Shown piece by piece: positions 1 through 39,743 of a DNA stretch of 42,226 nucleotides (position 1 is the first letter of the stretch; every line of letters begins with the position of its first letter). The DNA comes from a virus: positions 1 through 42,226 of the IMG/VR virus record IMGVR_UViG_3300033154_000104, one strand, 5' to 3'. The position numbers and the translations under genes are program-made. The notes under the pieces are model-generated. The model was not told the DNA's origin and made no database searches. It saw only the letters and a program-made list of their open reading frames with translations.

Positions 1-22
1 CAGTAGCCAGGGCCAGCACTAG

Positions 23-546: not shown

Positions 547-596
547 AGGCATGGGGGCTTCGAGGCCGAGATGGAACGATCCACCGCGGCGCAAAT

Positions 597-692: not shown

Positions 693-1091
693 ATGGCGAT
701 CGTTGCTCACAGGTGCGCGGAGGGTCACGAGGATTGTTCGGTGAGTGGGTCTGGGGGGTCGTGCACGAATCCGGTTCGTCGGGTGGTCGGGGCGAATCCG
801 AGTTCTCCGGTGAACGATCCGCTCGACCTGGCGGCGGGTGAGGCGGGCGGTTCGATTCCGAAGTACCACGCGGAGGCGGTGGATCAGGCGTCGAACGCTG
901 TTCCTATTCGTCCGATCGACAATTGGGCCGACAAGGCGACGTTCGTGTGCGCGACGTGCATGTGGTTCATGGTCAAGGGCCCGGTGTTCGGTCATAGCGA
1001 CATGGGCCGTTGCCGGAAGAAGGCGCCGACGTTGCAGGGTTGGCCGGCGATGTTCTCGACGGACTTTTGCGGGGATCACAAGATCCGATGA
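693..1091 (+). CDS. Cys-rich small protein, unknown function
   Basis: This 132-residue protein starts at ATG 693, chosen over in-frame ATG 543 because AAGGAGG lies six bases upstream and the 543-692 stretch lacks coding-type third positions. It contains two early cysteines (HRCAEGHEDC) and a later set: FVCATCMWFM, then a Cys before RKK, then DFCGDH near the end. This pattern could bind zinc. The stop overlaps the start of the large terminase (ATGA), so the two are probably co-translated. I do not recognise the family; a packaging accessory role is only suggested by position. Confidence 0.7.
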   Translation: MAIVAHRCAEGHEDCSVSGSGGSCTNPVRRVVGANPSSPVNDPLDLAAGEAGGSIPKYHAEAVDQASNAVPIRPIDNWADKATFVCATCMWFMVKGPVFGHSDMGRCRKKAPTLQGWPAMFSTDFCGDHKIR

Positions 1092-2899
1092 GCCGATCGC
1101 CCGCGGATCTGACGTTCCCTGAGTTCTCGGAGGAGTACTTGCGGATCACGCCGAAGCTGGGCGGCGTGGTTCCGTTCGTGCTGAACAAGGCGCAGATGCG
1201 TGTGGACGCGATCATCGAGGAGCGCCGGGCGGCGGGGAAGCCTGTACGGATCATCATCCTGAAGGCTCGTCAGATGGGGTTCTCGACATATTCGCTGGGC
1301 CGGATGTACCACTACTCGACGACGCAGCGTGGTGTGACGACGTTCCTTGCGGCGCACGACGAGGATTCGACGCGGGATCTCTTCGAGCGGGTGCGGCTGA
1401 TGTACGAGATGGCGCCCGCCAGGCCGATGTCGCGGAAGAACAACCGGATGGAGCTCGACTTTGCGAATCCCGATCCGAAGACGGCGAAGGGGAACCCCGG
1501 ATTGCAGTCGAAGATCCGGATCGGCACGGCTGGGAAGTCGAAGTTGGGCCGGTCGAAGACGTTGCGGTACTTGCATCTGTCGGAGGTTGCGTTCTGGGAC
1601 AACGCGAAGCGGGTGTTGTTGGGGCTCGAACAGGCTTTGCCGGACGATCCTGCGACGGTGCAGATCATCGAGTCCACGGCCAACGGCGTCGGAGGGGAGT
1701 TCTACGACCGCTGGCAGCGCAGTCAGAATCCGGAGGAGGCGGGGGATTGGATCGGGGTGTTCTTCCCGTGGTGGGAATTCGACGAATACCGCCGTCCGAT
1801 CGAGGCAGGAGCGATGGTTCCGGTTCCGTCGAGCGTGGTCGATCGTGAGGAGTTCCGGGTTGCCGAAGGGTTGATGAAGGCGCAGTTCGACCTGGACGAC
1901 GATCAGTTGAACTGGCGGCGCTGGGCGATTGTGAACAAGTGCGGCAACGACCTGGATCTGTTCCACCAGGAGTACCCGACGACGCCTCAGGAGGCGTTCT
2001 TGACGTCCGGCAGGCCGATCTTCAACGCGCGGAAGCTGGTCTACCGGCACAACGAGCTGACGGCGCTCGATTTGCGGATTTCGGCGTCGGATGGCACGCG
2101 CCGGCCACGCGGGCTCGAGGGCGACATTCGGCGGAAGGGTGCGCAGGTGCGGTTCGTTCCGAAGCCGGACGGGCCGCTGATGATCTACCGGATGCCGGAG
2201 CGTGGGCGGGAGTACTGGATCGGCGCGGACGCCTGCCGCGGGATCGTCTCGCCGAAGAATCCGGACCCTGATTTCGCGGAGGCCCACGTCTACGACTCGA
2301 AATCGTGGGAGCAGGTTGCGGTCTACCGCGATCGGATCGAGGCGTCGAAGTTCGCCAAGGTGGTGACCGCGCTGGGCTGGTATTTCGGCGGGGCGCTGTT
2401 GATTCCGGAGTCGAACGACCACGGCAACACGGTGATCGTCTCGATTCAGAACGAGGGCTACCCGAATCTGTACGTCCGGCACGACACCGACAAGATGGGG
2501 ATGGAGCCGATCAAGCGGTTCGGCTGGGAGAACAACCGGAAGACCCGTCCGCAGGTGGTGGATGCGGTGGACGACGCGATCAACGAGGACCTGGCGACGT
2601 TCAACGACATTCCGACGATCGAGCAGATGATGACGTTCGTCCGGAACCCGTCGACCGGCAAGCCGGAGGCCGATATTGGCTGCCACGACGACGGCGTGAT
2701 CGCTTCCGGGCTGGTATTTGTCGTTGCGGAACTGCAACAACCTGGGGATATGTCGAACAAGCGGCTGGATCTGGACCGATTGCCTCCTGAACAGTCGATG
2801 GTGATGCGTGATATTCTCAGACAGAAGCGTGCTGTGGTCCTCCAGCGCAATCAGGCCTGGGGGAACACGCAGCACGACGAGAATCTATTCGGAGGCTGA
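1088..2899 (+). CDS. terL: Terminase large subunit (TerL)
   Basis: This is a 603-residue packaging motor: the ATPase translocates DNA into the prohead and the nuclease cuts concatemers. Start is ATG 1088, overlapping the previous stop. ATPase motifs are a Walker-A-like KARQMGFST (59-67), Walker B LHLSE (162-166) and the coupling motif STANG (196-200). The TerL-typical HQEYPTTPQEAF lies at 293-304. In the RNase-H-like nuclease domain the acidic residues are D381 (in IGADAC), E441 (in LIPES) and D534/D535 (in CHDDG). All motifs look intact. Third positions favour G and include TTG leucines, unlike the C-favouring capsid genes downstream. It acts at the portal vertex with the protein at 4703-6937. 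Confidence 0.95.
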   Translation: MSRSPADLTFPEFSEEYLRITPKLGGVVPFVLNKAQMRVDAIIEERRAAGKPVRIIILKARQMGFSTYSLGRMYHYSTTQRGVTTFLAAHDEDSTRDLFERVRLMYEMAPARPMSRKNNRMELDFANPDPKTAKGNPGLQSKIRIGTAGKSKLGRSKTLRYLHLSEVAFWDNAKRVLLGLEQALPDDPATVQIIESTANGVGGEFYDRWQRSQNPEEAGDWIGVFFPWWEFDEYRRPIEAGAMVPVPSSVVDREEFRVAEGLMKAQFDLDDDQLNWRRWAIVNKCGNDLDLFHQEYPTTPQEAFLTSGRPIFNARKLVYRHNELTALDLRISASDGTRRPRGLEGDIRRKGAQVRFVPKPDGPLMIYRMPERGREYWIGADACRGIVSPKNPDPDFAEAHVYDSKSWEQVAVYRDRIEASKFAKVVTALGWYFGGALLIPESNDHGNTVIVSIQNEGYPNLYVRHDTDKMGMEPIKRFGWENNRKTRPQVVDAVDDAINEDLATFNDIPTIEQMMTFVRNPSTGKPEADIGCHDDGVIASGLVFVVAELQQPGDMSNKRLDLDRLPPEQSMVMRDILRQKRAVVLQRNQAWGNTQHDENLFGG

Positions 2900-2900
2900 G

Positions 2901-3116
2901 ATGAGTCTTTCCGATGGCGAGCTGGACAAGCGATTCATGGCGGCCCCGGACCTCGATACCGGGACAGAGATGGCGGTGGCGCAGGTCAAGGAAGCCCTGT
3001 ACCAGGCCGCCCGTACCATCACGCAATCCGGGAAGGATTGCCGCGAGCGCAGCATCGCGCTCACGAAGGTCGAAGAGGCGCGGTTCTGGGCCGTGGCCGC
3101 GATAGCGCGGGAGTAG
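2901..3116 (+). CDS. acb2: Acb2-family anti-CBASS cyclic-nucleotide sponge
   Basis: This is a 71-residue helical protein starting at ATG 2901, one base after the terminase stop, with GGAGG ahead of the start. From residue 50 it reads RSIALTKVEEARFWAVAAIA. That closely follows the signature I recall for Acb2/Tad1-hairpin proteins (a basic residue, S-x-A-L-T-x-x-E-E-A, two residues, W-A, then A-A-I-A-R). The N-terminal DKRF also resembles the family's ARF motif. Acb2 proteins form hexamers that sequester cyclic di- and trinucleotides and block CBASS, and in some cases Thoeris, signalling. Placement directly behind terL inside the late operon is notable. Nucleotide binding is inferred from the family. 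Confidence 0.8.
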   Translation: MSLSDGELDKRFMAAPDLDTGTEMAVAQVKEALYQAARTITQSGKDCRERSIALTKVEEARFWAVAAIARE

Positions 3117-3119
3117 GCC

Positions 3120-3299
3120 GTGCCGAGCCCGATCATCAAGAAGCTCGAGCCGAGGAAGGAGGCAACCGATGTCGAAGAAGCGAACGCCGAAGAAGCGGCG
3201 CCCGCTGTGCCGGGAAAAGGCAACGGGGGCGACCCTGACGCTGCGCGACCTGGTGCTGGGGGCGAAGCTCCATCCACCGTGCTACGAGGGGATCACTGA
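3120..3299 (+). CDS. Possible overlapping small ORF
   Basis: A GTG-started frame of 59 codons begins four bases after the Acb2-like gene's stop, with GGGAG just upstream. Its first sixteen or so codons end almost only in G or C, as in real genes here. After about 3169 the bias weakens because the next gene uses another frame. The product would be rich in Ala, Glu, Gly and Pro. It may be a true short overlapping gene or a leader that couples translation to the 3169 gene. Confidence 0.28.
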   Translation: MPSPIIKKLEPRKEATDVEEANAEEAAPAVPGKGNGGDPDAARPGAGGEAPSTVLRGDH

Positions 3300-3375
3300 G
3301 GCTGACGGCAGCGAGATCCTCGAGAAGGTCCGGCAACACCTGAACGAGAAGATTGCCGAGCACCTCCGTGGGTAA
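3169..3375 (+). CDS. Small basic protein, unknown
   Basis: This 68-residue protein starts at ATG 3169 behind a textbook SD (AGGAAGGAGG, then six bases). The N-terminus is very basic (KKRTPKKRRP), with a Cys at residue 14 and another near 39. The C-terminal half looks helical (EILEKVRQHLNEKIAEHL). Third positions are strongly G/C in this frame, supporting coding. I do not recognise it; the basic arm could contact nucleic acid. The end overlaps the next start by 8 bases. Confidence 0.65.
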   Translation: MSKKRTPKKRRPLCREKATGATLTLRDLVLGAKLHPPCYEGITEADGSEILEKVRQHLNEKIAEHLRG

Positions 3376-3742
3376 GGGCACGCCGTACCGCGTTCCGGAC
3401 AAGTACCGACGTTCCACGGGGAACAAGCGGTATCAGTTCGACGACACCGGGCTGGCCGCCCTGGTCAGCTTCGTCTACCTCAAGGGCTGGGAGGATCGGG
3501 ACGCGATCGAGTGCAAGCGGAAGGCCGCCGAGGAGGGCCCGCTGAAGGCTGACGAGACGCTCGCCGGGCGGCACGAGAAGCACCGATTGGACATCCCCAG
3601 CGAGATTTTAGCCTCCCGCGTGGTCCAGGTAGGGCGTGACGCGATCGGCATGATGCGGAGTGAATCCGCGAAGAGACGCTCCAAGCTGATCGGTCTGGAC
3701 GGGGCAAGTCTTGTGGTACCCTCGGAGGGGAAGCCCAACTGA
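3368..3742 (+). CDS. Hypothetical protein
   Basis: This 124-residue protein is taken from GTG 3368, which overlaps the upstream stop by eight bases. TTG 3353 is an in-frame alternative, and neither has a strong SD. The sequence is mixed charged with a predicted helical middle (LAALVSFVYLKGW) and a basic segment (AKRRSKLIGL) before the end. There is no motif I can name. It belongs to the small-gene cluster between terminase and portal, where packaging accessory, decoration or host-takeover proteins are common. Confidence 0.6.
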   Translation: MGKGTPYRVPDKYRRSTGNKRYQFDDTGLAALVSFVYLKGWEDRDAIECKRKAAEEGPLKADETLAGRHEKHRLDIPSEILASRVVQVGRDAIGMMRSESAKRRSKLIGLDGASLVVPSEGKPN

Positions 3743-3767
3743 TAGTGGGGGAGCACAGGAGGTCGAT

Positions 3768-4067
3768 GTGCAGAACGCCCGCGAGGTAGTGATCCAGCCC
3801 GGCAAGGCCCGGTTCAAGCTGACCCCGGAAGTGGCGGTCGGTCTGATGGCGGCCCTGTGTAGCGACGGCGTCGAGCCGATGAACGAGTCCGCGGCGAGGA
3901 TGCGCTCCGCGATGACTCAGGAAGGCCCGGAGCGCCAGGCCTACATCGACAAGCGCCGGAAGCGAGCTTCCGCCCAAGGAGCGGCCACTCCGAAGGCGAC
4001 CAAGCCGAAGCCCCCCGTGGCGGTAGCCGCGGCCAAGCCCTCAGGCGGCAAGGGCAAGGGCAAGTAG
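3768..4067 (+). CDS. Hypothetical protein with Lys/Ala/Pro-rich tail
   Basis: A 99-residue product starts at GTG 3768, four bases after AGGAGGT. The frame is open upstream to 3711, but the SD fixes the start; ATG 3766 is in another frame. Residues 1-60 look like a small folded domain. From about residue 60 on it is low-complexity and basic, with repeated AxxKxxKPKPP-type runs and a GKGKGK end, probably disordered and possibly DNA-binding. No family recognised. Confidence 0.6.
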   Translation: MQNAREVVIQPGKARFKLTPEVAVGLMAALCSDGVEPMNESAARMRSAMTQEGPERQAYIDKRRKRASAQGAATPKATKPKPPVAVAAAKPSGGKGKGK

Positions 4068-4078
4068 GCAGGAGAGAC

Positions 4079-4114
4079 GCGGGGGCGGTCTGGTGGTCTT
4101 CGGCCCGCCCCCGC
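4079..4114. other. Strong GC hairpin between genes
   Basis: GCGGGGGCGG (4079-4088) is an exact inverted repeat of CCGCCCCCGC (4105-4114) with a 16-nt loop. It sits between the stop at 4067 and the ATG at 4125. No T run follows, so it is a poor intrinsic terminator. It may act as an RNA stability or attenuation element, or hold back translation of the next gene. Confidence 0.5.
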
Positions 4115-4124
4115 AGTCCCCGTC

Positions 4125-4400
4125 ATGGCGAAGCAATCCAAGAGCCCTTTCCCGGTCCTCGAGCAACAGTCTCGGCGCATCTCCCAGATGCGTGGTGCCG
4201 GATCTCCCAAGCCGCAAGCGTCAATCACCCGAGCTGCAGGTGTGCTTCTCCGGCGCCAGCGAAGTCAGGACAATCCGTACAACCTGACGCGGCTGCGTGC
4301 GGCTTACGGGGTCGGTAGGGGCGGGTCGATGCGCACGGGCTACGGGCGGCTGCTGACGCCCGCCTTCGGACGGCTCGCCAAGGGGAGGTTCTACTCGTGA
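4125..4400 (+). CDS. Small Arg-rich protein, unknown
   Basis: This 91-residue, strongly basic protein starts at ATG 4125 just after the GC hairpin, without a convincing SD. It is rich in Arg, Gly and Ser (for example RLRAAYGVGRGGSMRTGYGR), and there is no transmembrane segment or known motif. Its TGA overlaps the GTG of the next gene (GTGA), implying coupled translation. The composition suggests nucleic-acid contact or a minor virion protein; function not recognised. Confidence 0.5.
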   Translation: MAKQSKSPFPVLEQQSRRISQMRGAGSPKPQASITRAAGVLLRRQRSQDNPYNLTRLRAAYGVGRGGSMRTGYGRLLTPAFGRLAKGRFYS

Positions 4401-4702
4401 CGACCCAGGAAATACTGCTCGGCCTGGTCCTCGCCTTGCTGGGAATGCTCGGCGGGGTCGGATACCTCCTCTGGGGGCTGGTCCGGGACGCTTACAAGCG
4501 GCTCGCCGAGACTCAGAACATGGCGGCCCGCTGGCTCGAGTCCAGCGCGGCGCAACAGGGTGTCGAAGGTCCGGACAAGGAAGAACTACTTGGGTACACG
4601 CCCGTAGCTGGGGGCGGCTATGTGCGAGACGACGGCGCCGAGTTCGACGCTGCCGGGAACCTTGTACCCCTCATTCCACCCGAGGTCCGCGCCGATGGGT
4701 AA
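4397..4702 (+). CDS. Single-pass membrane protein, unknown
   Basis: This 101-residue protein starts at GTG 4397, inside the preceding stop. Residues 5-28 (ILLGLVLALLGMLGGVGYLLWG) form a clear transmembrane helix near the N-terminus, followed by a short amphipathic helix and a Gly/Pro/acidic tail. The stop TAA is followed directly by the portal's GTG. Membrane proteins are unusual between terminase and portal; it could be a holin-like, superinfection or assembly-site protein. No family identified. Confidence 0.6.
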   Translation: MTTQEILLGLVLALLGMLGGVGYLLWGLVRDAYKRLAETQNMAARWLESSAAQQGVEGPDKEELLGYTPVAGGGYVRDDGAEFDAAGNLVPLIPPEVRADG

Positions 4703-6937
4703 GTGGGAGCACAAGGCGTACCAGGAATAGCCGGTAAGTTCGCCGGCCAAGTCAACGCTCTCTACCAGGACGCGAAATCGAAGGCGTCGGCGATCGCGGG
4801 AAAGCTGCGCGCCGACGAGTCGAAGCCCGTCCCCTACTCGCCCACCGCGGACGAGCTGTACTGCCTCAAGCTGGTCGACGAGGCGAAGCGCGTCCGGTTG
4901 GCGACTCTCGAGGCCTTCGAGCCCGTATGGACGAAGGCGATCCTGTTCTGTGCCGGGGTGCAGCACCTCCGGTACATCTCAGCCTCGAGGAACTTCGAGC
5001 CGACCCGCTACGAGGACTGGATGCCGATGCCGGTGTTCAACTTCATCCAGTCCAAGATCCAGCGGATCATCGACTTCTTCACCCGGAACGATCCGACCGC
5101 GATGGTCGACCCGATCGACAAGACCGAGCTGAACCGCGAGGCGGCCAAGCTGGGCGAGACGGTGCGGAGCTATCTCTGGGAATACAACGACGAGCCGGAC
5201 AACTTCGACGAGGCGGCGACCTGGGCCGCGGTCACCGGCAACGCATTCAAGCGGAACTACATCGACGGCTCGATGCGGAACTCCCGGCGCGTCCCGAAGG
5301 TGATGGTCAGCGAGGAGCCGATACTTGACCCGATGACGGGCGAGCTGGTGATGCAGCCGGACGGCCAGCCGATGATGACCCCGCGCCACGCGATCGCCCG
5401 ATCGCCGGACGGCCAGATCCAGTACGAGGAGGTCCCCCAGGCCGAGCTCAATAGCTACATCGTCGGCCCGATGTCGATGACGCTGCCGCTGGCGACCCGG
5501 AGGCTGAAGGACGCCCCGTGGGTCATGGAGACGTCGCTCCAGCCGGTCGAGACGCTCCGGCAGCTCTACCCGAGGTTCGCCGACCACATCCCGAAGCAGG
5601 GGACGGTAATCACGTCCGACCTGTACCAGCACCGGCTGACGTCGCTTCTGACCTCCGGCCTGCACGGCGTCGTCCGCTCGCTCGACCCGTTCACGCTCGA
5701 CGGCTACATCATCGTGCACAACTACGAGCGCGCGCCGAACCGCGATTTCCCCACGGGGCTGAACATCGTCGAGGCCGATGGCCTGCCGCTCCATATCGGT
5801 GCGCTGCCCGAGCAGACCGAGTTCAGCTACAACCATTTCGGCTACTTCAGGACGGTGGGTCGCTTCTGGTTCCGCGGCGCGGTCGAGGACCTGATCCACC
5901 CGCAGGAGCAGATCAACAAGCTCGAGCAGTTCCAGCAGCTCAACGACGCCTTCAACGTCAACCCGCAGACCTACGTTCCGAAGGAGTCGGGGATCGCCGA
6001 GGGCGCCCTGCGCAACAAGCCGGGCAAGGTCACGCGCTACAAGTACCCGTTCAAGCCGGAGACGACTCCGGGGACGCCGCTGCCGCCGTCGATGATCCAG
6101 CGCCGCGGGATCTACATGCAGGACATCGAGGAGATCTCCGGCGTGCGCAACGTGATGATGGGCGATGCGCCCCCCGGCGTGACCGCGGGCGTGGCGCTGA
6201 ACCGTCTGAGCGAAGAGGCCGAGGGGATGTTCGCGCCGATCCAGCGTCGGTGGGAGACGTTCATCGAGCGCGACCAGACGTTGAAGCTGAAGCTCGTCCA
6301 GCGGTTCTACACCCTGCCGCGCTACATCTCGCTGAAGGAACGCGGGAGCCTGACCGAGATCAAGGATTTCATGGGCTCGCAGCTCCGCGGCAACACCACG
6401 GTCAAGATCCAGGCCGGGTCCTACCGCCCGCGCTCGAAGGCCGGTCAGCAGCAGTTGATGATCGACGCGCTGGGCATGGGGCTCCTGCCGGGCGTCTACA
6501 CCGACCCCGAGCAGCTCCGCGACTTCCTCGTGCGCCTGGGCGTGGACGGCTTCGATCCTCCCGAGGGCCTCGACTCGAAGCGGGCCAAGTGGGAGAACGA
6601 AATGCTCTCGAGGATGGACGGCTCCGAGCAGGTCACCCGCGAGCCTGCCGACAACGACTTCATCCACCTGATGATCCACAACAACTACCAGAAGACCGAC
6701 GACTTCCGGCGACTGCCGATGATGATGCAGACCGTTCACCACCTGCACATCGCCCACCACTTGCAAGCGGTGATCGAGGCCGAGGGGCACGACACGAACC
6801 AATTCGATCCACAAGACGAGGACCTCGAGCCTGCCGGTGGTTCCGGTGGCGGCGAGGGGTCCGAAGAAGGCCCAGGCGGGGGAGAGGCTGATAACGCGCT
6901 GGGCGAGGAGGTATCAGATGCGACGAATACTGCGTGA
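4703..6937 (+). CDS. Portal protein
   Basis: This 744-residue protein is the ring through which DNA enters and leaves the capsid and the docking site for terminase. The start GTG follows the previous TAA without a gap, and no in-frame alternative is better. Support comes from position between terL and the scaffold and capsid genes, from length in the range of P22-like podovirus portals, and from portal-like segments. These are the FNFIQSKIQRIIDFFTRNDP region early on and the VRNVMMGDAPPGVTAGVALN stretch with its long helical surroundings in the last third. The C-terminus is Gly/Glu-rich and probably disordered. It overlaps the scaffold start by 20 bases. Confidence 0.88.
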   Translation: MGAQGVPGIAGKFAGQVNALYQDAKSKASAIAGKLRADESKPVPYSPTADELYCLKLVDEAKRVRLATLEAFEPVWTKAILFCAGVQHLRYISASRNFEPTRYEDWMPMPVFNFIQSKIQRIIDFFTRNDPTAMVDPIDKTELNREAAKLGETVRSYLWEYNDEPDNFDEAATWAAVTGNAFKRNYIDGSMRNSRRVPKVMVSEEPILDPMTGELVMQPDGQPMMTPRHAIARSPDGQIQYEEVPQAELNSYIVGPMSMTLPLATRRLKDAPWVMETSLQPVETLRQLYPRFADHIPKQGTVITSDLYQHRLTSLLTSGLHGVVRSLDPFTLDGYIIVHNYERAPNRDFPTGLNIVEADGLPLHIGALPEQTEFSYNHFGYFRTVGRFWFRGAVEDLIHPQEQINKLEQFQQLNDAFNVNPQTYVPKESGIAEGALRNKPGKVTRYKYPFKPETTPGTPLPPSMIQRRGIYMQDIEEISGVRNVMMGDAPPGVTAGVALNRLSEEAEGMFAPIQRRWETFIERDQTLKLKLVQRFYTLPRYISLKERGSLTEIKDFMGSQLRGNTTVKIQAGSYRPRSKAGQQQLMIDALGMGLLPGVYTDPEQLRDFLVRLGVDGFDPPEGLDSKRAKWENEMLSRMDGSEQVTREPADNDFIHLMIHNNYQKTDDFRRLPMMMQTVHHLHIAHHLQAVIEAEGHDTNQFDPQDEDLEPAGGSGGGEGSEEGPGGGEADNALGEEVSDATNTA

Positions 6938-7703: not shown

Positions 7704-7715
7704 TAGGAGTACCCG

Positions 7716-9002
7716 ATGAAGTCACTGATTCAGTTCATCATTCGGGCCTTCCTGCCCTGCGTCACGAGCGCGGACCTGACGACCCTTTCCGAGATCCTCA
7801 AGGAGGTCTACGACCCCGTGATCGAGGATCAACAGAACCTCGAGGCGTTCACCTGGAAGGAATTCCAGGACGGGGACGACGAGCTGGGTGGTCAAGGTTG
7901 GTTCTTCGCCGTGAAGGTCGGGGGCAACCAGGAAGGCATCGGCGCCCGCGCCGAGAAGGGCACGCTCCCCGTGCCTGCACACCAGCGGTGGCAGAACGGC
8001 CTGATCTACTGGAGGTTGCTCTACGGAGCCTTCGAGCTGAGCGGGCCCGTGATCGAGGCCGCCAAGACCAACCTCAAAGCCTTCGCCAACGCCCGCACGG
8101 ACGAGATCGAAGGCCTCACCCGCGACACGATCAAGGACTTCAACCGTCAGATCTTCGGCGACGGTACCGGGATCATGGCGCTCTGCACCGCGATCAACTC
8201 GACGGTGACGCAGGAGGTCGACAACGCGCAGTACCTCCGCGTCAACATGATGATCGACATCTGGGACGACGGTAACCCGGACGCCATCATCGGAGACAGC
8301 CTGCAAATCACGGCCATCTCCCCGAACGCGGACGGCACCGCGGACCTGACCACGGACACCGGATCGCACACGACAGCCGTGGGCGACATGATCCGGCGCG
8401 AGGATGCAGCGGTCGACGACGGAGCGGGAGACGCGACGTCCTACGAGATGACCGGCCTGCAAGAGATCATCGACGACGGGACGATCGCGGCGACGTTCGA
8501 GAACATCGTGCGAGCGGACTTCCCGATCTGGAATGGTCACGTCCTCGACAACAGTGGAACGGATCGCAACCTCACTCTCGACATCCTGCAACAGGCCGAG
8601 GATGCGGTGTACCGCGCCGCGTCGAAGCGGCCCAACTGGATCCGCATGAACTTGGGCCAGCGCCGCAAGTTCTTCGACCTGGTCGCTCCGGACAAGCGGT
8701 ACATGAGCGGTCGGATCGACGGCGGCTGGGAGCGGCTCGAGTACAACGGCCTCGAGCTGACGGTCGACGTGGACGCCCCGAAGGGCAAGATCATCTTCCT
8801 CACCAAGGAGACGATCAAGAAGTACAGCCTGCGGAAGTTCGGGCTGATCGACTTCGATGGCCTGGTCCTGCGCCAGAAAGACGGCAAGGACCTCTGGGGC
8901 GGCTACATCGGTGCGTACTGCAACCTGGGCAGCAAGCGGCCCAACTGCAACGCGATCGTCACCGATCTCTCGGAGCCGACCGAGGAACAGTGGGTCTGGT
9001 GA
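7716..9002 (+). CDS. Major capsid (coat) protein
   Basis: This 428-residue protein starts at ATG 7716, preceded by TAGGAG. It directly follows the scaffold and has the length and mixed alpha/beta composition of HK97-fold coats. The N-terminal part (ILKEVYDPVIEDQQNLEAF), a middle basic/aromatic segment (SKRPNWIRMNLGQRRKFFD) and the C-terminal VDVDAPKGKIIFL to GLIDFDG run resemble unprocessed-type phage coats I know. A beta-rich acidic insertion lies near residues 200-260. A structured intergenic hairpin follows the gene. The fold assignment rests on context and general resemblance. Confidence 0.85.
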   Translation: MKSLIQFIIRAFLPCVTSADLTTLSEILKEVYDPVIEDQQNLEAFTWKEFQDGDDELGGQGWFFAVKVGGNQEGIGARAEKGTLPVPAHQRWQNGLIYWRLLYGAFELSGPVIEAAKTNLKAFANARTDEIEGLTRDTIKDFNRQIFGDGTGIMALCTAINSTVTQEVDNAQYLRVNMMIDIWDDGNPDAIIGDSLQITAISPNADGTADLTTDTGSHTTAVGDMIRREDAAVDDGAGDATSYEMTGLQEIIDDGTIAATFENIVRADFPIWNGHVLDNSGTDRNLTLDILQQAEDAVYRAASKRPNWIRMNLGQRRKFFDLVAPDKRYMSGRIDGGWERLEYNGLELTVDVDAPKGKIIFLTKETIKKYSLRKFGLIDFDGLVLRQKDGKDLWGGYIGAYCNLGSKRPNCNAIVTDLSEPTEEQWVW

Positions 9003-21361: not shown

Positions 21362-24300
21362 ATGGGCAAGTGGCTCACGAGCGCCGATCGAGCTGGGTGG
21401 GAAGACGTTGCGCCTCCGCACCCGGTCGAGGGAGGGCAGGGCGTCGATACGCCTCCGCCACCTGTGACGCCGCTGAGTATGCAGATCAACCCGAAGTCTC
21501 CCGAGGAGCTGTTCGAGGAGCAGGAGGACAAGGGCTGGTTCACTTCCGACAAGCGCGAGGGCGACCTGGCCTACGCGCCGCAGGGCGAGACGGACTACGG
21601 CTACCGGAACGTGATCCAACACGGCATCGGCGAGTCCCTGCCCGCCCGTGCGGCACAGCTCGCGCTCAGTCCGGTGATGAAGGCCTACTTCCCGAAGGAG
21701 TGGGAGGAGTACCGCGAGTTCCAGAGCACCATCAAGCCTCGAGGCGGCGGCCAGGAGTTCGCTCACGGGCTCGCCGCGATCCTTCCCGAGCTTCCCGCGT
21801 TCAGTCTCGGCGGCGCGACGACGCGGGCCGCGCTGGCGCAGGTCGCCGGGCGGCAGTTCATCAAGCGCGAGGTCGCCAAGGGTGGCGTCCGTGCCGGAGT
21901 GATCCTCGAGCGCCTGGGTGAGGAGGGAGCCGTCGCTGCCGGGGCCGCGCTCGCCGCGGAGGCCGGGACAGAAGTTCTCGCGCAGGTGACGCGCCGGACC
22001 CTGGCACGAAAGTACGGCACGCAGATCTTCGCGGAGGCCATCAAGGGCGGCGGCGCGAAGGCTGCCGGACTGAAGGCTGCGACGAGCGCGGGGATGTTCG
22101 GCCAGGTCGACGTCGTCCGCGAAGGCCTGATGCAGGCGACCGAGGGCTACTTCTCTCCAGCCGAGATGGCGAAGGCCGGACTACACGGCGTCGTCGTCGG
22201 TGCGGTGATCGGCGGATCGGGCGCCCCGTTCGCTCGAGCGGCGGGACGCATCCCCGCGGAAGCCGCCGCGATGACGGTGGCCGGCGCGGCGCTCGAGGGA
22301 GACGCTCCGAAGATCGAGGACTTCGGCGTCAACGTGCTGTTCTTCTCCGCGCTGAGCGCGGTCCACGCAGCCCCCAGCCTCCAGGGCCAGATGCGCCAGA
22401 TGGCTTACAACTGGCGCTCGCGCCTGGGATGGGCCCGCGGCGGCAAGCTGCTCGAGTCGATCAAGTACGCGGACCCGAAGGCCGTCCAGGCGATGACCTA
22501 CGCGATGGATCAGGCGCGGCAGGGCAATCCGCACTACTACAGCATGATGGCCTTCATCGGCCCGGAGAAGTTCCGATCGCTCGCCAAGGCCGAGATCGCC
22601 TACGAGGAAGCGAAGGCGGGCGGCGACAGCGCGACGGTCGAACGGGCGCGCGCCGAGTTCGAGAGCGCCAAGCGCCAGATGAACGACACGGTCGACGGGT
22701 TCCGCAAGGAGTGGGCGCGGACGCTCGAGAAGGCCGAGGAGCGGAGGCAGGACCCGGTTGTCGATGCGGAGCGCGAGGAGCGGGAGCACCGCAAATTCCT
22801 CGAAGACTCAGAGCGTCAGATGCAGCGGTACCAGCAGGAGCTCGACGAGCTGCGGATCTTCGGCGAGTCGGACACCGACCGCGGTCGTGCGGCCCTCGCA
22901 GCCTGGGAGGAATACCTCGAGACGAACATCGGCATGTACAAGCGCGACCTGGCGCGTGCCGAGCCGACCCGCGAGATCCCGATCCTCGAGGGTGGCGAAG
23001 CGCGACCCGAGGGTGTTGTCGAACGGGCCGAGCCCGAGCTACCGGAAGGTGTCGTCGGCGAGGGCAGGAAGCAGCCCGGCCCAGCGGAGCCGCCGATCCT
23101 CGAGGCCGGAGAGGACCCGCGCCTGGTGAAGGGCAAGCCCGAGGAGCTGCCGCCCGGCGAGATCGTCAGCCCTACCGGCGAGCAGGCGCGACTCTCCGCG
23201 CTGGCCGAGCAGATGTTCTCGATCGAGCAGGACCTCGAGGGCGCCCGTCGCCTGGAGGACATCGGCGAGCGCGAGCGCGCCGTGAGGGACCTGGAAGCGG
23301 CCCGCATCGAGACGGCACGGCAGATCGACGCCGCGCTGGAGACGTCGAAGCGGAAGCGGGCCGAGGCCGCCGAGGCGGAGAGGAAGGCCAAGCAGGAGAA
23401 GCGCACGCCGAAGGCCGCGGAGGCACCGGCCAAGTACAGCCGACAGTGGTGGAATCGCAGGAACGCCGCGTTGCGCGAGCTGGGCTACGACAAGAAGCAG
23501 ATCGAGGAGATGGACGAGGGCGCCGCCGACCGGATCATCCGGGAGAGCGCGAAGCCGGGCACGCTGCCGTTGCAGACCGTGACGCGGGAGCAGATGCCGT
23601 CGTTCATCCCGAAGGAGTCGAGGGGCGAGGTCATCGCCACTCTCAGGGCCGCGGGCTACACGCCGAAGCAGATCAGGGACCTGAAGGAGGCCGCCCGCGA
23701 GGATTGGGGCGACATGGCGTGGGCCTACTACGAGGTCACTGGAAAGCTGCCGTCCGGTACGAGCCTGCGCGGAGAAGCTGAGGGGCGTCCGTCAACTCCG
23801 CGTGAGGAGCCTCCGACCGAGAAGCCTCCGCCCTCGGACGTGTCTCCCCCCGCCGAGGGCACGGAGAAGGCGGAGGCCCCGCCAAAGCCACTGACCGAGG
23901 CTGAGATCAAAGCGGAGGCCGACGCTGCGATCGCCGAACTGGAGGGGGAGGAGCCACCGAAGCCGGAAGCACCAAAGCCGGAACCCACCGCGCCCGCGCC
24001 GGAACCGGAGGCTCCCCCCTCGGACAAGCCCACGAAGGCCTTCATCGTCCCGACCCGCGGCGAGAAGGGCGGCGTCGAGATCAAGGTCGAGCCGGTCGAG
24101 GTCGAGAAGCCAGTCGAGCTTCTTCGAGTCCTTGTCAACGAGATCAAGACCGAGCCGCAGCCCGAAAAGCCGAAGGAGTTCACCAACGAGGAGATCGAGA
24201 AGGCCGCCGCCGAGGACGAGGCCAAGCTATCGCGGGAGGACCGCGAGGCCAGCATGGACCGCGACTACGAGGAGTTCGACGCGCAGGTGGCCGACGAGAT

Positions 24301-27300
24301 GGCCGCCGCGGAGATCGCCAACCTCGAGCCCTCGAAGCCGCCCAGCAAGCCGCGGAAGGCAACCACGAAGGTCAGCACCCCGCAGCAGCTCCGCGACAAG
24401 ATCCTCGAGGAACCCGGCGTCGAGGACGCGCTCAAGACGCTGAAGGACGTCTGGAAAGGGAAGAAGCTCTACGACTTCCCCGGCCCGCTGGTCGACCCCG
24501 ACGTCCACAAGGCGGTCATCCGGCTGGGGGTCGCCACGATCCGCGTACTCAGCAAAGAGTTCGGCAAGGTCGTCAAGGGCTGGTGGAAGCAGCGCATGAA
24601 GGACGTCTTCTCCAGCCAGGGAATGACGATCACCGACAGCGACCTCGATTCGATATGGAACCTCGACAGCGTCAAGGCGTTCGTCACACGGGAGGAGAAG
24701 GCCAATGCAAGCGCAATTACTCGTGGCGGCGGCAAAAAAGCGGGACAGCCTGGCACCGGAAAGGGTCGTCGACCTGATGTGCCGGCCACCGAAGGAGCTG
24801 AGGAACCCGGAGTACCAGCAGGCGGCGCAGCACGTCCAGAGATGGCTGGCGCTGGGGGAGAAGCTGGTCGACCTGGGGGTGGCGAGGTCGAAGGAGGACG
24901 TCGCGGTGGCAAGGTTCAGGGGGCTCGAGAAGGCCAAGCACTTCAAGGCCGCACATCCCGCATGGACACCCGACTCGAAGGTGATAAGCCGGTTGAGCTT
25001 ACGCCTAAGCCGCGGCGGGAGATCAACGAAGAAGTAGAGCGCATCCTTTCGACGAAGACGCTCGACGATCTCACCGACACCGACCTCGAACTGATCCGCC
25101 AGTACACGGGATGGGGTGGCCTCGGCAAGAGCAGCAAGGACGTCGACGTCGCCGCGCAGCTCGAGGAAGGCCACCGCGGAGTCCTGTGGCAGCACTTCAC
25201 CAGCTACCAGGTCGCCGACTCCATCTGGGGCAAGCTCGAGGCGCTCGGTATCAAGCGGGAGCGACGTGCGATCCAGGTGCTCGAGCCTGCGGTGGGCTCC
25301 GGCAACTTCCTCGGCCTGAAGCCGAAAGGGCTCCGCGCCAACTTCGTGGGGCTCGACGTCGAGGACACACCCGCGAAGGTCGCCAAGGCGCTCTACCCGC
25401 AGTCAGACATTCGGATCATGCCCTTCCAGCAGCTCGAGGGGATGGAAGGCAAGTTCGACCTGGTCATCGGCAACCCGCCGTTCGCGTCGAGCTGGAAGGG
25501 GCAGAAGCTCCCCGGAGGCAAGCCCTACGCCGACGTTCAGGCGCTCCACGATATGTTCGTGGTGAAGGGGATCGACCAGCTCAAGCCCGGTGGCGTGCTG
25601 GCCTACGTCATCTCGACCGGCTTCATGGACAAAATGACGAGCGACGTGCGCCAACGCATCGCCGGGAAGGCACGCCTCGTCAGCGCCTACCGGCTGCCGT
25701 CCGGCACGTTCTCGAAGAATGCGGGATTCGCCGGGCCGGTCGATGTGGTGTTCTTCCAGCGCCTCGGCGCCGATCGCGTCGGCAAGGTGCCGAAGGTCGA
25801 GGTGGACCGCTGGGTCAAGTCGTCGCCGCCAGGGAAGGATCAGCCCTACCTGAGCGCCTACTACCAGAACAACCCGAAGCACATCCTCGGCGATCTCGAG
25901 ATCGGCCTGGGCCAGGGGAAGGGCGCGCAGAAGCGGTGGGGCGTGCGCGGGAAGTTCAAGGGCTTGCCCGAGGACGCCATTAAGCTCGAGTCGATCCGCG
26001 CCAGGCCCGAGAAGGAAGCCAAGGTCGAGCCGCCCCCGGACCTCACCGACGCCGTCCCCGCTGGCGATCGCGTGACGGACGAGTTCTTCACCGAGAACAA
26101 GAAGCTCTACCGGGTCCAGTCGGTCGAAGGCCGGAATTGGGGCGTGCCGTACAAGAGCAGCGACAAGGGAAAGGTGATGGTCGCCGCGGGCGCGATCGAG
26201 CTGGTACGCAAGATCCAGCAGGCCGAGCTTGCCGGAGAGTCGAGCAAGGTAGCGAAGACCGCGCTGGGCCGATTGCTCGATATGTGGATGGCGAAGGAAG
26301 GAAAGCCGTTCGCCGAGTTCGCGGCGATGCTGAAGAAGTTCCCCGACCACCAGCGATTCACGCTCGAGCAGCTCATCCGGGAGGACGGGACCTACGCCGC
26401 GATCGTCACCAAGCCGACGATCTTCAACAAGGCCGTGCGCCCCCCGGCGATCGACACGCGCAGCTTCGACCAGGTCAGCATGGACATCGGGAAGCGCCAA
26501 GGCTTCGTGACGGCGCAGGAGTTCCTGAAGGAGTACACCGGCAAGGACCTGAAGACCCTCGATGACGTCACGACGAAGTTCGCCAGCTTGTCCGAGTGGA
26601 ACCGCACGAACGAGGGCTGGGTCCACGACAGCGACTACAAGGTCGGCGACGTCAGGTCCAAGATGCGCGAGGCCGAGGCGATGGGCCTGACGCACCAGGT
26701 CGAGAAGCTGCGGAAGGTGCTGCCGGAGCAGCTCGACCAGGAGTCGTTCACGAAGTCAGAGGACGTCGCCACGCTGGCCGCAGGCTACCTCAGTGAGAGC
26801 GGCGTCGAGGACTTCTGGAACTACATCGGCTCCGATCTCCTTCTCGCCAAGGTCGGCGTGAAATGGCAGCTCGAGGGACGGGGCCATCAGACCAAGCGGA
26901 TGTTCCGCAAGGTTCCGAAGTACGAGCGGCTCTCGGCGGCTACGGAGATCCTCGGCGTCAAGATCCCGGCAGACACGGACGGCAGGCCGATCGTCAATGC
27001 GGAGGCCCTGCTCGTCGCTCGACTGAACGGCACGATCTACAAGGCGACGAAGGACCGCACCGACCCGCGCACGGGCGCGGTCACGCCTGGCCGGTCGGAA
27101 GCCGAGGCCAAGGCCATGAACGAGGCGCTGCGCGCCGCCGACGAGATCTTCCGCAACTACCTCGAGCGGCAGCCGAAGGCGGCGGCCAAGTTCCTCGCCG
27201 ACTACAACGAGCTGTTCCGTTCGTTCGTCGATAAGAAGTTCCCGGAGGACCTCGATGTCGAGGGATTGTCCACCGAGTACTTCAAGCACATCCATCCGTG

Positions 27301-30300
27301 GCAGGGGACCGCGGTCAACTTCGCCCTCCACACTGGCCGCGGGATCATCGGGCTCGGTACCGGCACCGGGAAGACGTTCATCGGAATACTCCTCGGCCAG
27401 AAGCTCCGGCAGACGGGCCAGGCCAAGAAGCCTCTCTACGTCGTCCCAAAGAGCGTGCTCGTGAAGTGGGAGCGCGAGTACATGCTGGCGTTCCCCGGCG
27501 CGAAGATCCTCCGGCTGGGCACCCTCGGCAAGGATCGGGTGAAGCTGCTCACCAAGTTCGCGCTCAACGACTACGACGCGGGCATCATCTCGGTCGAGGC
27601 GCTGAAGAAGGTCAACCTGAGCACGCCTCGCCTCCAGGCCTGGTACCAGCGGAAGCTCCAAGAGTCGCTCGACGCCCTGGCGAAGGCCAAGGGCAGCGGG
27701 ATCACCGAGCGGTGGGTCCAAGAGCAGATCGCCAAATGGGAGGAGAAGCTCGAGAGGCTGACCGACTACCAGGAAGACGCCGACGCCGGGATCTTGTTCG
27801 AGCAGCTCGGTGTCGATGCGCTGATCGTGGACGAGGCCCACAAGTACAAGAACCTCGCGCCGGTCGGCGGGGGGCTCCAGAACGAGCTGGGGATGGGCGG
27901 CGACTCCGACCGTTCGATAGACCTCGAGATCAAGAACGACTTCATCCTCAAGCAGAACGGCAACCGGAACGTCTTCTTCCTGACGGCCACGCCGACACCG
28001 AACGCGCCCATCGAGATCTACTCGATGCTCTACATCATGGCGCCCGACGTCTGGAGGCGGCACGGGATCAACAGCCTGCACGAGTTCCTGCTCACCTTCG
28101 GCGAGGTCGCGCCGAAGATGGTGGTCGACGAGCAGGGCTACGAGAAGACGAAGTCCGACCTGGTCGGATTCAAGAACCTGATCGACCTGCGTGCGATCTT
28201 CCACCGCTACGTCTACTTCCGCACGTCCGACAAGCTGAAGCAGGACTTCCCGAACTACACCTACCGGCAGCCGAAGGGCAAGCAGGTCCGCGTGGAGCTC
28301 GACCCGCCGCCCGAGACGGAATCGCAGATGTCCGAGGTCACGCGGGACGCGCAGAATCCGCCCACGGACCCGAAGGCGCGGCGCGGCCACATACTCAGGG
28401 TCGGCAACAAGGCGATCTCCGTCGCGGTGGGCCCCGGCCTCATGGACGAGAAGCTGGCCGACAACCGGCACCCGCACGACAAGCTGACCCGCGTGGCGAA
28501 CAACGTCGCCGAGCACTACATCAAGCTGAAGGCCGAGCGGCGCCGACCGTCCGTAGAGGACGACCCGAACGCTCCCGACCTCAACGGGCAGTTGGTCTTC
28601 CTCAACCGCTACGGGGGCAAGGCCGCCGAGATCTACACGATGAAGCGCAACTACCACGAGCGGGCCCGCGACCGCATGGTGGAGCTGGGCATCCCGCGTG
28701 AAGAGATCGCAATCATCAACGGCGAGCAGAACAACAAGCCCGAACAGAAGCAGCGGATCGCCGACCTCTACAACGAAGGCAAGCTCCGAGTGGTCATCGG
28801 ATCGACCGCGTCGATGGGCGAGGGGATGGACCTCCAGCGCATCACGACCGCGATCCACCATTGGGACATGGACTGGAACCCCGAGCTGATGCGGCAGCGC
28901 GAAGGCCGCGGTATCCGGCAGGGCAACCTCGGCGACGAGGTCCTGACCTACTACTACACGATGCGGCAGACGCACGACGGCAAGTTCTTCTCGAAGCTCG
29001 AGTCCAAGAGCAACTGGCAGATCGAGCTGCTATTCGGCACCGCCGACAAGATGGAGAACCCGCTGGCGCTCTCGAAGGGCATGGACAGCCTGGCCTCGAT
29101 CGCCGAGGACCTGATGGCGAAGCCCGCCGATCGCTACGTCCGCGAGGCCCGCGGGGAAGCCAGGGTCGCCGGGATTGCCCTCGGCCAGCTCGAGGACGCC
29201 CTCACGCTGACCGGCAACAACCTCGACAAGGTGCGCGAGGAGCAGCAGGTCAGGAAGGACCGCGTCGAGGAGTACAAGCGCCGGGCGGCCCTCTCGAAGC
29301 AGGAAGGCGCGTTCTCCACGCTGATCGACAAGGAGCTGGACAAGCTGGGTGCGCTGGCCGACGCCGAGAAGGTGCTGGCCGCCGAAGTCAACAAGCTCAA
29401 CGACCAGATGCCGGAGGCGCAGCAGAGGCTCGCTGACGAAAAGATCTCCGAGGACGCGGCGCTCCGCGTGCGCGACCTGGTGCAGTTCGACAATCAACCG
29501 CTGGGGCGTGCGATCCAGGAGGTCGCGTTCGAGGGCTACAAGGAGAAGCTCCCGAAGAAGTTCGACCTCGAGCTGTTCGCGCAAGAGCTGAGTCGGCTGG
29601 GGATGGATACGACGATGGCCGCGATGGTCGAGTCCGGCTCCGTGACGATCCCCTCGATTTGGCTGATGAACAAGCTGGACCGCCCGAAGCTCGAGCAGGC
29701 CTACAAGAACCTGGGCTACGGCTCGATGCCGGAGTTCCGCCCGAAGGTCAAGACGGCGATGGGCGCGGCGAGCCCGAGCGAGTTCTACCAGGCCGAGCGT
29801 GACCGGCAGTACCTCCAGGCCCAAGCCGAGTACATCCTCGATCGGGCCAAGGAGATGGGGATCAACCTCGACGGCGGGGTGCAGAAGAAGCTCGAGAAGG
29901 TGCGGCGCGAATCCCAGGCGACCACGCGGGTCAACATGAAGGACAGCGCGATACCGACCGGCAAGAAGGGCCGCGAGCTGGACAGCGCCGAGATCCAGAT
30001 CCTCTCGAGGGAGGGGCTGGTCGACCACGAGAAGATGGCGCACCTGGGCAAGGAGGCGGTCCCCGAGGAGGCGATCGACGCCATGACCCCGGCGCAGAAG
30101 CTCGTCCACATGATGCGGCGCGTCGATGCCGCGATGGACGTCCGGCACATCGAGAACATCCTCAAGGCGAAGAAGTACAAGACCTGGGCGCTCTCCGACG
30201 AGGACGCGCAAGCCCTGATGACCAAGGTCGGCTTCCGGATGCGCAACGACGACATCGCCAGCTACCCGAAGAAGCTGCGCGGGTTCATCAAGCAGATGGA

Positions 30301-30790
30301 GCAGGGCGAGGAGCCCGGCCTGGTCAGCAAGAAGAAGCTCGCCAGCGGCAGGATGAAGCGCACGGCCTTCGGACTGTTCCCGCCTCGCACGGCGCTCCGC
30401 GGCACCGGGATCTACGAGCGGTACCACGTCGCCTACGAGGGCATGAAGCGCGAATGGAACCTCCGATCGAGTGTCGGCGAGAAGGAGATCTTCGTTGACC
30501 CCAGCGGCAGGCGCGTCAAGGCCGACAGCATCGACGACAAGCTGATCTACCTGCTCCTCGACAACCCCGAGGGCGACGAGCGCCACCTGGCCCGGCCCGA
30601 CGTCCGTATGCCCGATGGCCGGCGCATGGCTCCGAAGGAGTGGCACCGCGATCGCGCCAAGATGCTGAAGGAGGTCCTCGACGACCTGGCCGACCGGCAA
30701 GGCCTCGAGAAGGGCCGTCAGCGGAAGTACTACGCCACGCACATCATGGACCGGCTGCTCGAGCAGGAGGCGGCGACCGGGCCGATCTGA
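21362..30790 (+). CDS. Giant polyvalent protein: N6-methylase and SF2 helicase (DarB-like)
   Basis: A 3142-codon frame. Residues ~1-350 are Ala/Gly-rich with membrane-like helices; ~350-1110 are charged, coiled-coil and Pro/Glu-rich. From ~1200 comes the methylase: YTGWGG start, VLEPAVGSGNF (1306-1316, motif I) and NPPF (1371-1374, motif IV, adenine-N6 type). The helicase follows: GTGTGKT (1999-2005), DEAH (2157-2160), TATP (2208-2211) and QREGRGIRQ (2512-2520), all intact. P1 DarB, a virion-borne antirestriction protein, has this kind of layout. Here it lies in the ejection-protein position, so delivery with the DNA is likely. Coding moves to another frame at 24705-25037, where this frame becomes Gly/Pro-rich with poor third positions. 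The methylase part could instead begin at Met 1201 (24962). Confidence 0.85.
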   Translation: MGKWLTSADRAGWEDVAPPHPVEGGQGVDTPPPPVTPLSMQINPKSPEELFEEQEDKGWFTSDKREGDLAYAPQGETDYGYRNVIQHGIGESLPARAAQLALSPVMKAYFPKEWEEYREFQSTIKPRGGGQEFAHGLAAILPELPAFSLGGATTRAALAQVAGRQFIKREVAKGGVRAGVILERLGEEGAVAAGAALAAEAGTEVLAQVTRRTLARKYGTQIFAEAIKGGGAKAAGLKAATSAGMFGQVDVVREGLMQATEGYFSPAEMAKAGLHGVVVGAVIGGSGAPFARAAGRIPAEAAAMTVAGAALEGDAPKIEDFGVNVLFFSALSAVHAAPSLQGQMRQMAYNWRSRLGWARGGKLLESIKYADPKAVQAMTYAMDQARQGNPHYYSMMAFIGPEKFRSLAKAEIAYEEAKAGGDSATVERARAEFESAKRQMNDTVDGFRKEWARTLEKAEERRQDPVVDAEREEREHRKFLEDSERQMQRYQQELDELRIFGESDTDRGRAALAAWEEYLETNIGMYKRDLARAEPTREIPILEGGEARPEGVVERAEPELPEGVVGEGRKQPGPAEPPILEAGEDPRLVKGKPEELPPGEIVSPTGEQARLSALAEQMFSIEQDLEGARRLEDIGERERAVRDLEAARIETARQIDAALETSKRKRAEAAEAERKAKQEKRTPKAAEAPAKYSRQWWNRRNAALRELGYDKKQIEEMDEGAADRIIRESAKPGTLPLQTVTREQMPSFIPKESRGEVIATLRAAGYTPKQIRDLKEAAREDWGDMAWAYYEVTGKLPSGTSLRGEAEGRPSTPREEPPTEKPPPSDVSPPAEGTEKAEAPPKPLTEAEIKAEADAAIAELEGEEPPKPEAPKPEPTAPAPEPEAPPSDKPTKAFIVPTRGEKGGVEIKVEPVEVEKPVELLRVLVNEIKTEPQPEKPKEFTNEEIEKAAAEDEAKLSREDREASMDRDYEEFDAQVADEMAAAEIANLEPSKPPSKPRKATTKVSTPQQLRDKILEEPGVEDALKTLKDVWKGKKLYDFPGPLVDPDVHKAVIRLGVATIRVLSKEFGKVVKGWWKQRMKDVFSSQGMTITDSDLDSIWNLDSVKAFVTREEKANASAITRGGGKKAGQPGTGKGRRPDVPATEGAEEPGVPAGGAARPEMAGAGGEAGRPGGGEVEGGRRGGKVQGAREGQALQGRTSRMDTRLEGDKPVELTPKPRREINEEVERILSTKTLDDLTDTDLELIRQYTGWGGLGKSSKDVDVAAQLEEGHRGVLWQHFTSYQVADSIWGKLEALGIKRERRAIQVLEPAVGSGNFLGLKPKGLRANFVGLDVEDTPAKVAKALYPQSDIRIMPFQQLEGMEGKFDLVIGNPPFASSWKGQKLPGGKPYADVQALHDMFVVKGIDQLKPGGVLAYVISTGFMDKMTSDVRQRIAGKARLVSAYRLPSGTFSKNAGFAGPVDVVFFQRLGADRVGKVPKVEVDRWVKSSPPGKDQPYLSAYYQNNPKHILGDLEIGLGQGKGAQKRWGVRGKFKGLPEDAIKLESIRARPEKEAKVEPPPDLTDAVPAGDRVTDEFFTENKKLYRVQSVEGRNWGVPYKSSDKGKVMVAAGAIELVRKIQQAELAGESSKVAKTALGRLLDMWMAKEGKPFAEFAAMLKKFPDHQRFTLEQLIREDGTYAAIVTKPTIFNKAVRPPAIDTRSFDQVSMDIGKRQGFVTAQEFLKEYTGKDLKTLDDVTTKFASLSEWNRTNEGWVHDSDYKVGDVRSKMREAEAMGLTHQVEKLRKVLPEQLDQESFTKSEDVATLAAGYLSESGVEDFWNYIGSDLLLAKVGVKWQLEGRGHQTKRMFRKVPKYERLSAATEILGVKIPADTDGRPIVNAEALLVARLNGTIYKATKDRTDPRTGAVTPGRSEAEAKAMNEALRAADEIFRNYLERQPKAAAKFLADYNELFRSFVDKKFPEDLDVEGLSTEYFKHIHPWQGTAVNFALHTGRGIIGLGTGTGKTFIGILLGQKLRQTGQAKKPLYVVPKSVLVKWEREYMLAFPGAKILRLGTLGKDRVKLLTKFALNDYDAGIISVEALKKVNLSTPRLQAWYQRKLQESLDALAKAKGSGITERWVQEQIAKWEEKLERLTDYQEDADAGILFEQLGVDALIVDEAHKYKNLAPVGGGLQNELGMGGDSDRSIDLEIKNDFILKQNGNRNVFFLTATPTPNAPIEIYSMLYIMAPDVWRRHGINSLHEFLLTFGEVAPKMVVDEQGYEKTKSDLVGFKNLIDLRAIFHRYVYFRTSDKLKQDFPNYTYRQPKGKQVRVELDPPPETESQMSEVTRDAQNPPTDPKARRGHILRVGNKAISVAVGPGLMDEKLADNRHPHDKLTRVANNVAEHYIKLKAERRRPSVEDDPNAPDLNGQLVFLNRYGGKAAEIYTMKRNYHERARDRMVELGIPREEIAIINGEQNNKPEQKQRIADLYNEGKLRVVIGSTASMGEGMDLQRITTAIHHWDMDWNPELMRQREGRGIRQGNLGDEVLTYYYTMRQTHDGKFFSKLESKSNWQIELLFGTADKMENPLALSKGMDSLASIAEDLMAKPADRYVREARGEARVAGIALGQLEDALTLTGNNLDKVREEQQVRKDRVEEYKRRAALSKQEGAFSTLIDKELDKLGALADAEKVLAAEVNKLNDQMPEAQQRLADEKISEDAALRVRDLVQFDNQPLGRAIQEVAFEGYKEKLPKKFDLELFAQELSRLGMDTTMAAMVESGSVTIPSIWLMNKLDRPKLEQAYKNLGYGSMPEFRPKVKTAMGAASPSEFYQAERDRQYLQAQAEYILDRAKEMGINLDGGVQKKLEKVRRESQATTRVNMKDSAIPTGKKGRELDSAEIQILSREGLVDHEKMAHLGKEAVPEEAIDAMTPAQKLVHMMRRVDAAMDVRHIENILKAKKYKTWALSDEDAQALMTKVGFRMRNDDIASYPKKLRGFIKQMEQGEEPGLVSKKKLASGRMKRTAFGLFPPRTALRGTGIYERYHVAYEGMKREWNLRSSVGEKEIFVDPSGRRVKADSIDDKLIYLLLDNPEGDERHLARPDVRMPDGRRMAPKEWHRDRAKMLKEVLDDLADRQGLEKGRQRKYYATHIMDRLLEQEAATGPI
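24705..25037 (+). CDS. ORF nested in the giant gene, different frame
   Basis: This 110-residue protein starts at ATG 24705 with GGGAGGAGAAG just upstream and stops at TAG 25037. In this frame nearly all codons between 24705 and ~24960 end in G or C, as in real genes here. The enclosing frame ends in G or C at only about half its codons there and becomes Gly/Ala/Pro-rich. The product looks natural: ELRNPEYQQAAQHVQRWLAL and EKLVDLGVARSKEDVAVARF are helical, and the end is basic. It may be an independent gene between two former genes that lost a stop, or a true overprint. No homologue recognised. Confidence 0.7.
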   Translation: MQAQLLVAAAKKRDSLAPERVVDLMCRPPKELRNPEYQQAAQHVQRWLALGEKLVDLGVARSKEDVAVARFRGLEKAKHFKAAHPAWTPDSKVISRLSLRLSRGGRSTKK

Positions 30791-38313: not shown

Positions 38314-38322
38314 GAGGCAACC

Positions 38323-39498: not shown

Positions 39499-39743
39499 TG
39501 CCCGACAACCCCATCGTGGCCCACACCGTCTCGTGCTGCGTCTTCGTGAAAGGCAAGGAGAACGCCAGCGCAGCCGCCAACGAGTTCGTCCGAAGGCTGC
39601 TCGACGGCAGACGGCTCCTACATTGCAAGCCCATCCGCCAGGATCTCACCAGCGGCGACACCATCTACTGCGGTGCCGACGTGCAGGAGATCGTCGAGTT
39701 CGTTCCCACCGCAGTCGTCAAGAAGAAAAAGGAGGCAACCTGA
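39498..39743 (+). CDS. Small hypothetical protein in the nuclease-ATPase operon
   Basis: This 81-residue protein starts at ATG 39498, overlapping the upstream stop (TGATG) with AAGGAGG just before. It has paired cysteines in SCCVF and single ones further on (LLHCKP, IYCGAD), and ends in a KKKKEAT basic tail. It overlaps the ATPase start by TGATG too, so the three genes are tightly coupled. Possible small partner of the nuclease or ATPase; not recognised. Confidence 0.65.
   Translation: MPDNPIVAHTVSCCVFVKGKENASAAANEFVRRLLDGRRLLHCKPIRQDLTSGDTIYCGADVQEIVEFVPTAVVKKKKEAT

Follow-up and report, generated by a model that had tools for sequence, protein, structure and literature searches.

A 71-residue Acb2/Tad1-hairpin family protein with a probably altered dinucleotide pocket, encoded directly behind terL in a viral contig

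Results

The locus and its neighbours

The window analysed here, a 42,226-base IMG/VR virus record taken at full length, opens with two unassigned ORFs, followed by terL, an acb2-like ORF, several small ORFs for which searches of Pfam and PHROGs gave no match, a portal gene, one further unassigned ORF and the gene for the major head protein (Table 1). The acb2-like ORF, with the translation MSLSDGELDKRFMAAPDLDTGTEMAVAQVKEALYQAARTITQSGKDCRERSIALTKVEEARFWAVAAIARE ahead of its stop codon, is a real gene. It contains no internal stop or frameshift, its codon use is neighbour-like, and its third-position GC of 0.83 matches that of its neighbours (0.85 in terL). Its reading frame is also open upstream, with a GTG at 2808; we placed the start at the ATG at 2901-2903 because of the family alignment and of a GGAGG ribosome site, read directly in the sequence, within the 3' end of terL. 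The one-base junction with terL reported in the initial annotation is confirmed, G2900 alone separating this ATG from the TGA at 2897-2899. For terL itself, we inferred a start where its ATG overlaps, as ATGA, the stop codon of the ORF that ends at 1091.

Table 1. Features of the window discussed in the text
Feature	Position	Strand	Evidence
Terminase large subunit (TerL), 603 aa, start ATG 1088	1088..2899	+	PHROG 2, E = 8e-23; PHROG 24361; tblastn relatives annotated terL
GGAGG ribosome-binding site of the acb2-like ORF	2891..2895	+	sequence
Acb2/Tad1-hairpin family protein, 71 aa	2901..3116	+	PF24729, PHROG 1454, AF2, BFVD
Codons F12 to L33, aromatic/His-free after F12; A14-A15 at the place of T4 Y8	2934..2999	+	family alignments
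Small ORFs between acb2-like gene and portal gene (3169-3375, 3353-3742, 3711-4067, 4397-4702)	3169..4702	+	no family match
Portal protein, P22-like	4703..6937	+	PHROG 156, 2e-25; PF16510, 9e-13
Major head protein	7716..9002	+	PHROG 14242, 4e-52
3142-aa ORF	21362..30790	+	Eco57I/N6 DNA-methylase and ResIII/Helicase_C domains
Gp3-like recombination-directionality-factor-like protein, then PD-(D/E)XK exonuclease, SMC/SbcC-like ATPase	37198..41632	+	PF18897, 129 bits (first protein)

The gene order fits the late-operon placement proposed for the acb2-like gene, which would then be expressed with the virion genes. Nearly all large genes of the window, the right-end nucleases included, lie on the + strand, so that strand alone is no sign of late expression, and a sigma-70 promoter scan over positions 1-9100 found none (1.0 expected by chance).

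The phage is distant from all cultured phages: its TerL shows at most about 40% identity to those of other viral contigs, and its portal protein 22-24% identity to those of Arthrobacter phage Jasmine and Microbacterium phage Shocker. The single 3142-aa ORF in its right half recalls the large DarB-like antirestriction proteins and is possibly a second anti-defence gene of this phage.

Family membership and fold

The 71-residue protein matched the Acb2/Tad1 hairpin family PF24729 over residues 20-70 with 47.5 bits (E = 2e-12; curated cut-off, 27 bits) and PHROG 1454 with E = 2e-12, and the motif ALT-x-x-EEA-x-x-WA-x-AAIAR, from which an Acb2-like protein had first been proposed, is found at residues 53-70. 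PADLOC and NCBIfam searches with the protein gave no match, and a search of viral contigs with this single sequence returned no close relatives. Many phage proteins align to it at near-full length, the nearest (L046 and L023) with 46% and 44% identity, respectively.

Among proteins of solved structure, the best sequence match is Acb2 homolog 43 (PDB 9ptq), found with E = 0.017 by phmmer with the protein alone and with 1.5e-12 by a T4-free family profile of 67 sequences, which matched Tad1 entries at about 1e-4. Both proteins carry the hairpin motif REKS..TKLEEAMF; at the N-terminus the homolog keeps F-x-x-H (FDTHL), whereas the window protein has F-M-A-A. A match of a different profile (A1) to T4 Acb2 (PDB 7uq2) was discarded as circular, T4 Acb2 being inside that profile, and hhalign of the family profile against the lone T4 sequence aligned 21 columns (probability 69%). 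The link to T4 Acb2, the product of vs.4, is therefore taken not from hhalign but from Pfam, where this protein is likewise a PF24729 member (71.5 bits). It has the T-K-x-x-E-A-x-x-W-A core, a lysine at K23 and alanine at three hexamer-interface positions in common with the window protein, from which it differs by its longer inter-helix loop and by overall sequence, identity being about 19%.

An AlphaFold2 model of the monomer, built with 66 viral relatives, reached a pLDDT of 90.2 and predicts helices at residues 5-12, 23-42 and 48-70, that is, a short N-terminal helix followed by two long antiparallel helices, which is the fold of PF24729. Acb2 protomers have been described in the same terms (PMC12043709, PMC10419184), and the arrangement recurs in the Acb2 of phages PaMx33 and PaMx41 (PDB 8h2j and 8ixz, where it is called p26), the founding anti-CBASS sponge, which the family profile missed at E 0.1. 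In BFVD, the structural neighbours of the model are phage Acb2/Tad1-hairpin proteins, themselves predicted, with a probability of 1.00 and TM values of up to 0.87. Foldseek against the PDB gave no significant match, which we take as uninformative for a helical protein of 71 residues; missing significance is common among small helical bundles. Tad1 (Thoeris anti-defence 1) shares with the window protein the hairpin domain and the R-E..A-L-T..E-E-A..W motif, but has in addition an N-terminal beta-sheet domain, whereas the model contains no strands; the Tad1 architecture is thus absent here.

Profile matches, alignment and fold together make it clear that the protein belongs to the Acb2/Tad1-hairpin family, and we regard its homology as settled. 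The initial annotation as an Acb2-like protein is upheld by these data, and the structure prediction that it had proposed as a check returned the expected helical hairpin in the monomer along with the Acb2/Tad1 matches in BFVD. The protein is short, helical and alanine-rich, and a chance ORF resembling an Acb2 hairpin might be considered, but the probability of this is negligible in view of the Pfam and PHROGs E-values, the ribosome site, the coding-like composition and the near-full-length alignments; the family match rules it out.

Location of acb2-family genes with respect to terL

T4 vs.4 sits in the tk-vs-regB cluster, away from the terminase, and the acb2 gene of PaMx41 lies beside replication genes and is oriented against the structural genes, whereas the gene described here adjoins terL. 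The view that this junction is unlike that of known phages therefore stands with respect to T4 and PaMx41 but fails for the family as a whole, since at least nine further viral contigs also have acb2 immediately after terL. The intervening distance ranges from an overlap (L283, and L039, a Nonomuraea antri contig) through gaps of 8 (L029), 9 (L075), 18 (L180 and L297), 31 (L312) and 64 (L034) bases to one of 88 bases (L274); in L075 a portal-like gene begins 4 bases after acb2. The TerLs of such contigs fall into three groups (L034; L075; L029 and L180 with the L039 group), and BLASTP and phmmer gave no alignment between these groups or of any of them with the TerL of the window. Because the groups do not align, the terL-acb2 order occurs in at least four TerL groups, that of the window included. 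In a literature search not directed specifically at the junction, we found no paper describing its recurrence.

Members of the family also occupy other places. They lie upstream of the terminase genes in Aminay, Eponine, Bernal13, Jasmine (two genes before terL) and many contigs, between endolysin and holin genes in Jace, between tail genes in cyanophage S-2L, and among DNA-metabolism genes in Deloris, Syleon, Theresita and Talia1610. The S-2L gene is an unannotated PF24729 ORF (MW334946, 35199-35408; L003:4001-4210; 69 bits) between the genes for a tail protein and a tail assembly protein, the latter being annotated to begin inside the end of this ORF. In deposited actinophage genomes, several other PF24729 genes are labelled "hypothetical protein", namely Jasmine gp9, Aminay gp3, Bernal13 gp1 and Eponine gp5, and Balomoji gp102 was deposited as "cyclic nucleotide inhibitor".

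In our first scan, a PHROG-2 TerL was detectable in 33 records, and acb2 lay directly behind terL in 4 of them; among contigs of at least 20 kb it did so in 2 of 19, where the rough expectation is a fraction of one. An enrichment estimate was dropped as evidence of frequency, both because single-linkage clusters merged at lower thresholds and because two of the three scans had been seeded with terL-adjacent members; these later scans prove the recurrence of the gene order, not its frequency. Among the 21 other records with a related TerL, mostly fragments, PF24729 was found in only one, about 4 kb upstream of terL, and for this reason the acb2-like gene has the look of an accessory gene inserted into this phage lineage.

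As to timing, the left arm of cluster K mycobacteriophages is transcribed late, as seen by RNA-seq of Adephagia (PMC11373665), and in Aminay and Eponine the acb2-family gene precedes the terminase, at the left end. Adephagia was rejected as a timing proxy, the acb2-family gene being absent from it. By analogy, late expression of some family members would be expected rather than exceptional, and the gene in the window may well be expressed late.

The pocket and the helical core

In T4 Acb2, stacking on the cGAMP bases is the role of Y8 and F82, further contacts to the ligand come from H11, K23 and R79, and the hexamer is made by L29, A66, A73 and A77 (PMC10097602). Mutation of Y8 abolishes binding and function (PMC10097602; Y8A also PMC12657230), T68M lowers the affinity (PMC12657230), and the pockets for di- and trinucleotides are separate and independent (PMC12043709). 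We compared these residues in an alignment of the window protein with 84 relatives and T4 Acb2.

The T4 Y8 position is occupied by alanine, at residue 15 or 14 depending on the alignment; both are Ala, so that the loss of the stacking residue, which is a histidine in the branch to which the window protein belongs, does not depend on alignment choice. Indeed, whatever the alignment, His, Tyr, Trp and Phe are all missing from the stretch between F12 and Y34, as they are in only two other members, those of Aminay (L004) and Theresita (L019). At the residue-15 column, 80 of 84 relatives carry H, Y or W, and at column 26 an H, Y, W or F is present in 71 of 85 sequences. An H or Y at residue 15 is retained by the two nearest relatives, and the terL-adjacent contigs keep H there (F-x-x-H), uncertain cases of the L330 type excepted. 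The positions of T4 F82 and R79 are likewise alanine (A69 and A66), which is non-discriminating, as the branch has alanine at these positions in 80 and 81 of 84 members, respectively. The basic residue at T4 K23 is K30 in the window protein and R in 81 of 84 relatives.

The rest of the protein is strongly conserved. Twelve of 15 near-invariant family columns are kept, with R48, E49, A53, T55, E58, W63, A64, A66, A69 and R70 all present; A53, A60 and A64 correspond to the T4 hexamer-interface residues A66, A73 and A77, and T55 to T4 T68. The three changes from the family consensus are H15A, R30K and N65V; with three near-invariant columns changed, the protein may have lost its activity or have another ligand. 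On this comparison, the dinucleotide site is probably altered. Canonical binding of cGAMP appears doubtful because the Y8 position holds neither an aromatic residue nor histidine and Y8 mutants of T4 Acb2 are dead.

Discussion

The Acb2 family and its anti-CBASS role in T4 and the PaMx phages are already known, and putative Acb2 calls in actinophages have been published (PMC13348362, PMC11953737). What the sequence comparison adds is a family member whose pocket appears unusual.

We consider it reasonably probable that the protein is co-expressed with the packaging genes and acts, as an oligomer, as a sponge for an immune nucleotide of the host, its preference having shifted off cGAMP. This proposal is made because the stacking residue is lost while the helical core and K30 are kept. 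The protein would be translated from a terminase-portal message via its own ribosome site and would assemble into an oligomer, which is a hexamer in solved relatives. The oligomer would then sequester a nucleotide-derived signal of host immunity produced during infection, with a ligand preference away from classical 3'3'-cGAMP and possibly towards cyclic trinucleotides, which have a pocket of their own in solved Acb2. Oligomer, sponge activity, ligand, timing and anti-CBASS effect are all what we infer for this protein.

Two other readings deserve consideration. The protein may be an Acb2 of the usual kind that binds 3'3'-cGAMP and other dinucleotides as the T4 and PaMx33 proteins do, another residue taking the place of the aromatic one. 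Family and fold are the same, K30 preserves the basic residue, and with alanine so general at the F82 position the branch may hold its ligand differently from T4. We nevertheless judge this unlikely, given that the Y8A protein of T4 is binding-dead and that the F12-Y34 stretch is devoid of residues that most relatives possess at the residue-15 column and at column 26.

It is improbable, too, that this is a degenerating or repurposed member which keeps the fold and has lost sequestration, or which serves in packaging or assembly with its terminase and portal neighbours. The joint alteration of three near-invariant columns, the location between terL and the portal gene and the rarity of the family among related-TerL records, where its one occurrence is at another place, would agree with such a fate. 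Those 21 records are mostly fragments, however, and the intact frame, the neighbour-like codon use and the strongly kept core residues argue against this reading; packed late regions, moreover, often carry unrelated accessory genes.

The protein is a divergent natural variant in the Acb2 family, without a residue regarded as indispensable for binding dinucleotides, and it makes ligand choice in this large branch of actinophage and environmental sequences directly testable. In staphylococcal phages, the RNA that activates the CBASS cyclase derives from terS-terL (PMC10686824). By analogy, it is conceivable, if a long shot, that a sponge on the terminase message couples the CBASS trigger with its antidote in several unrelated phage lineages, the window protein being a re-tuned, non-cGAMP version; if so, a phage making the terminase message, by which the cyclase is alarmed, would always make a sponge for the cyclase product along with it. 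More generally, Acb2-family genes recur directly behind terL in unrelated phages, so that such antagonists also occur outside early-gene clusters. Should they be expressed late, their targets would have to be late-rising signals, such as any that terminase or capsid products set off.
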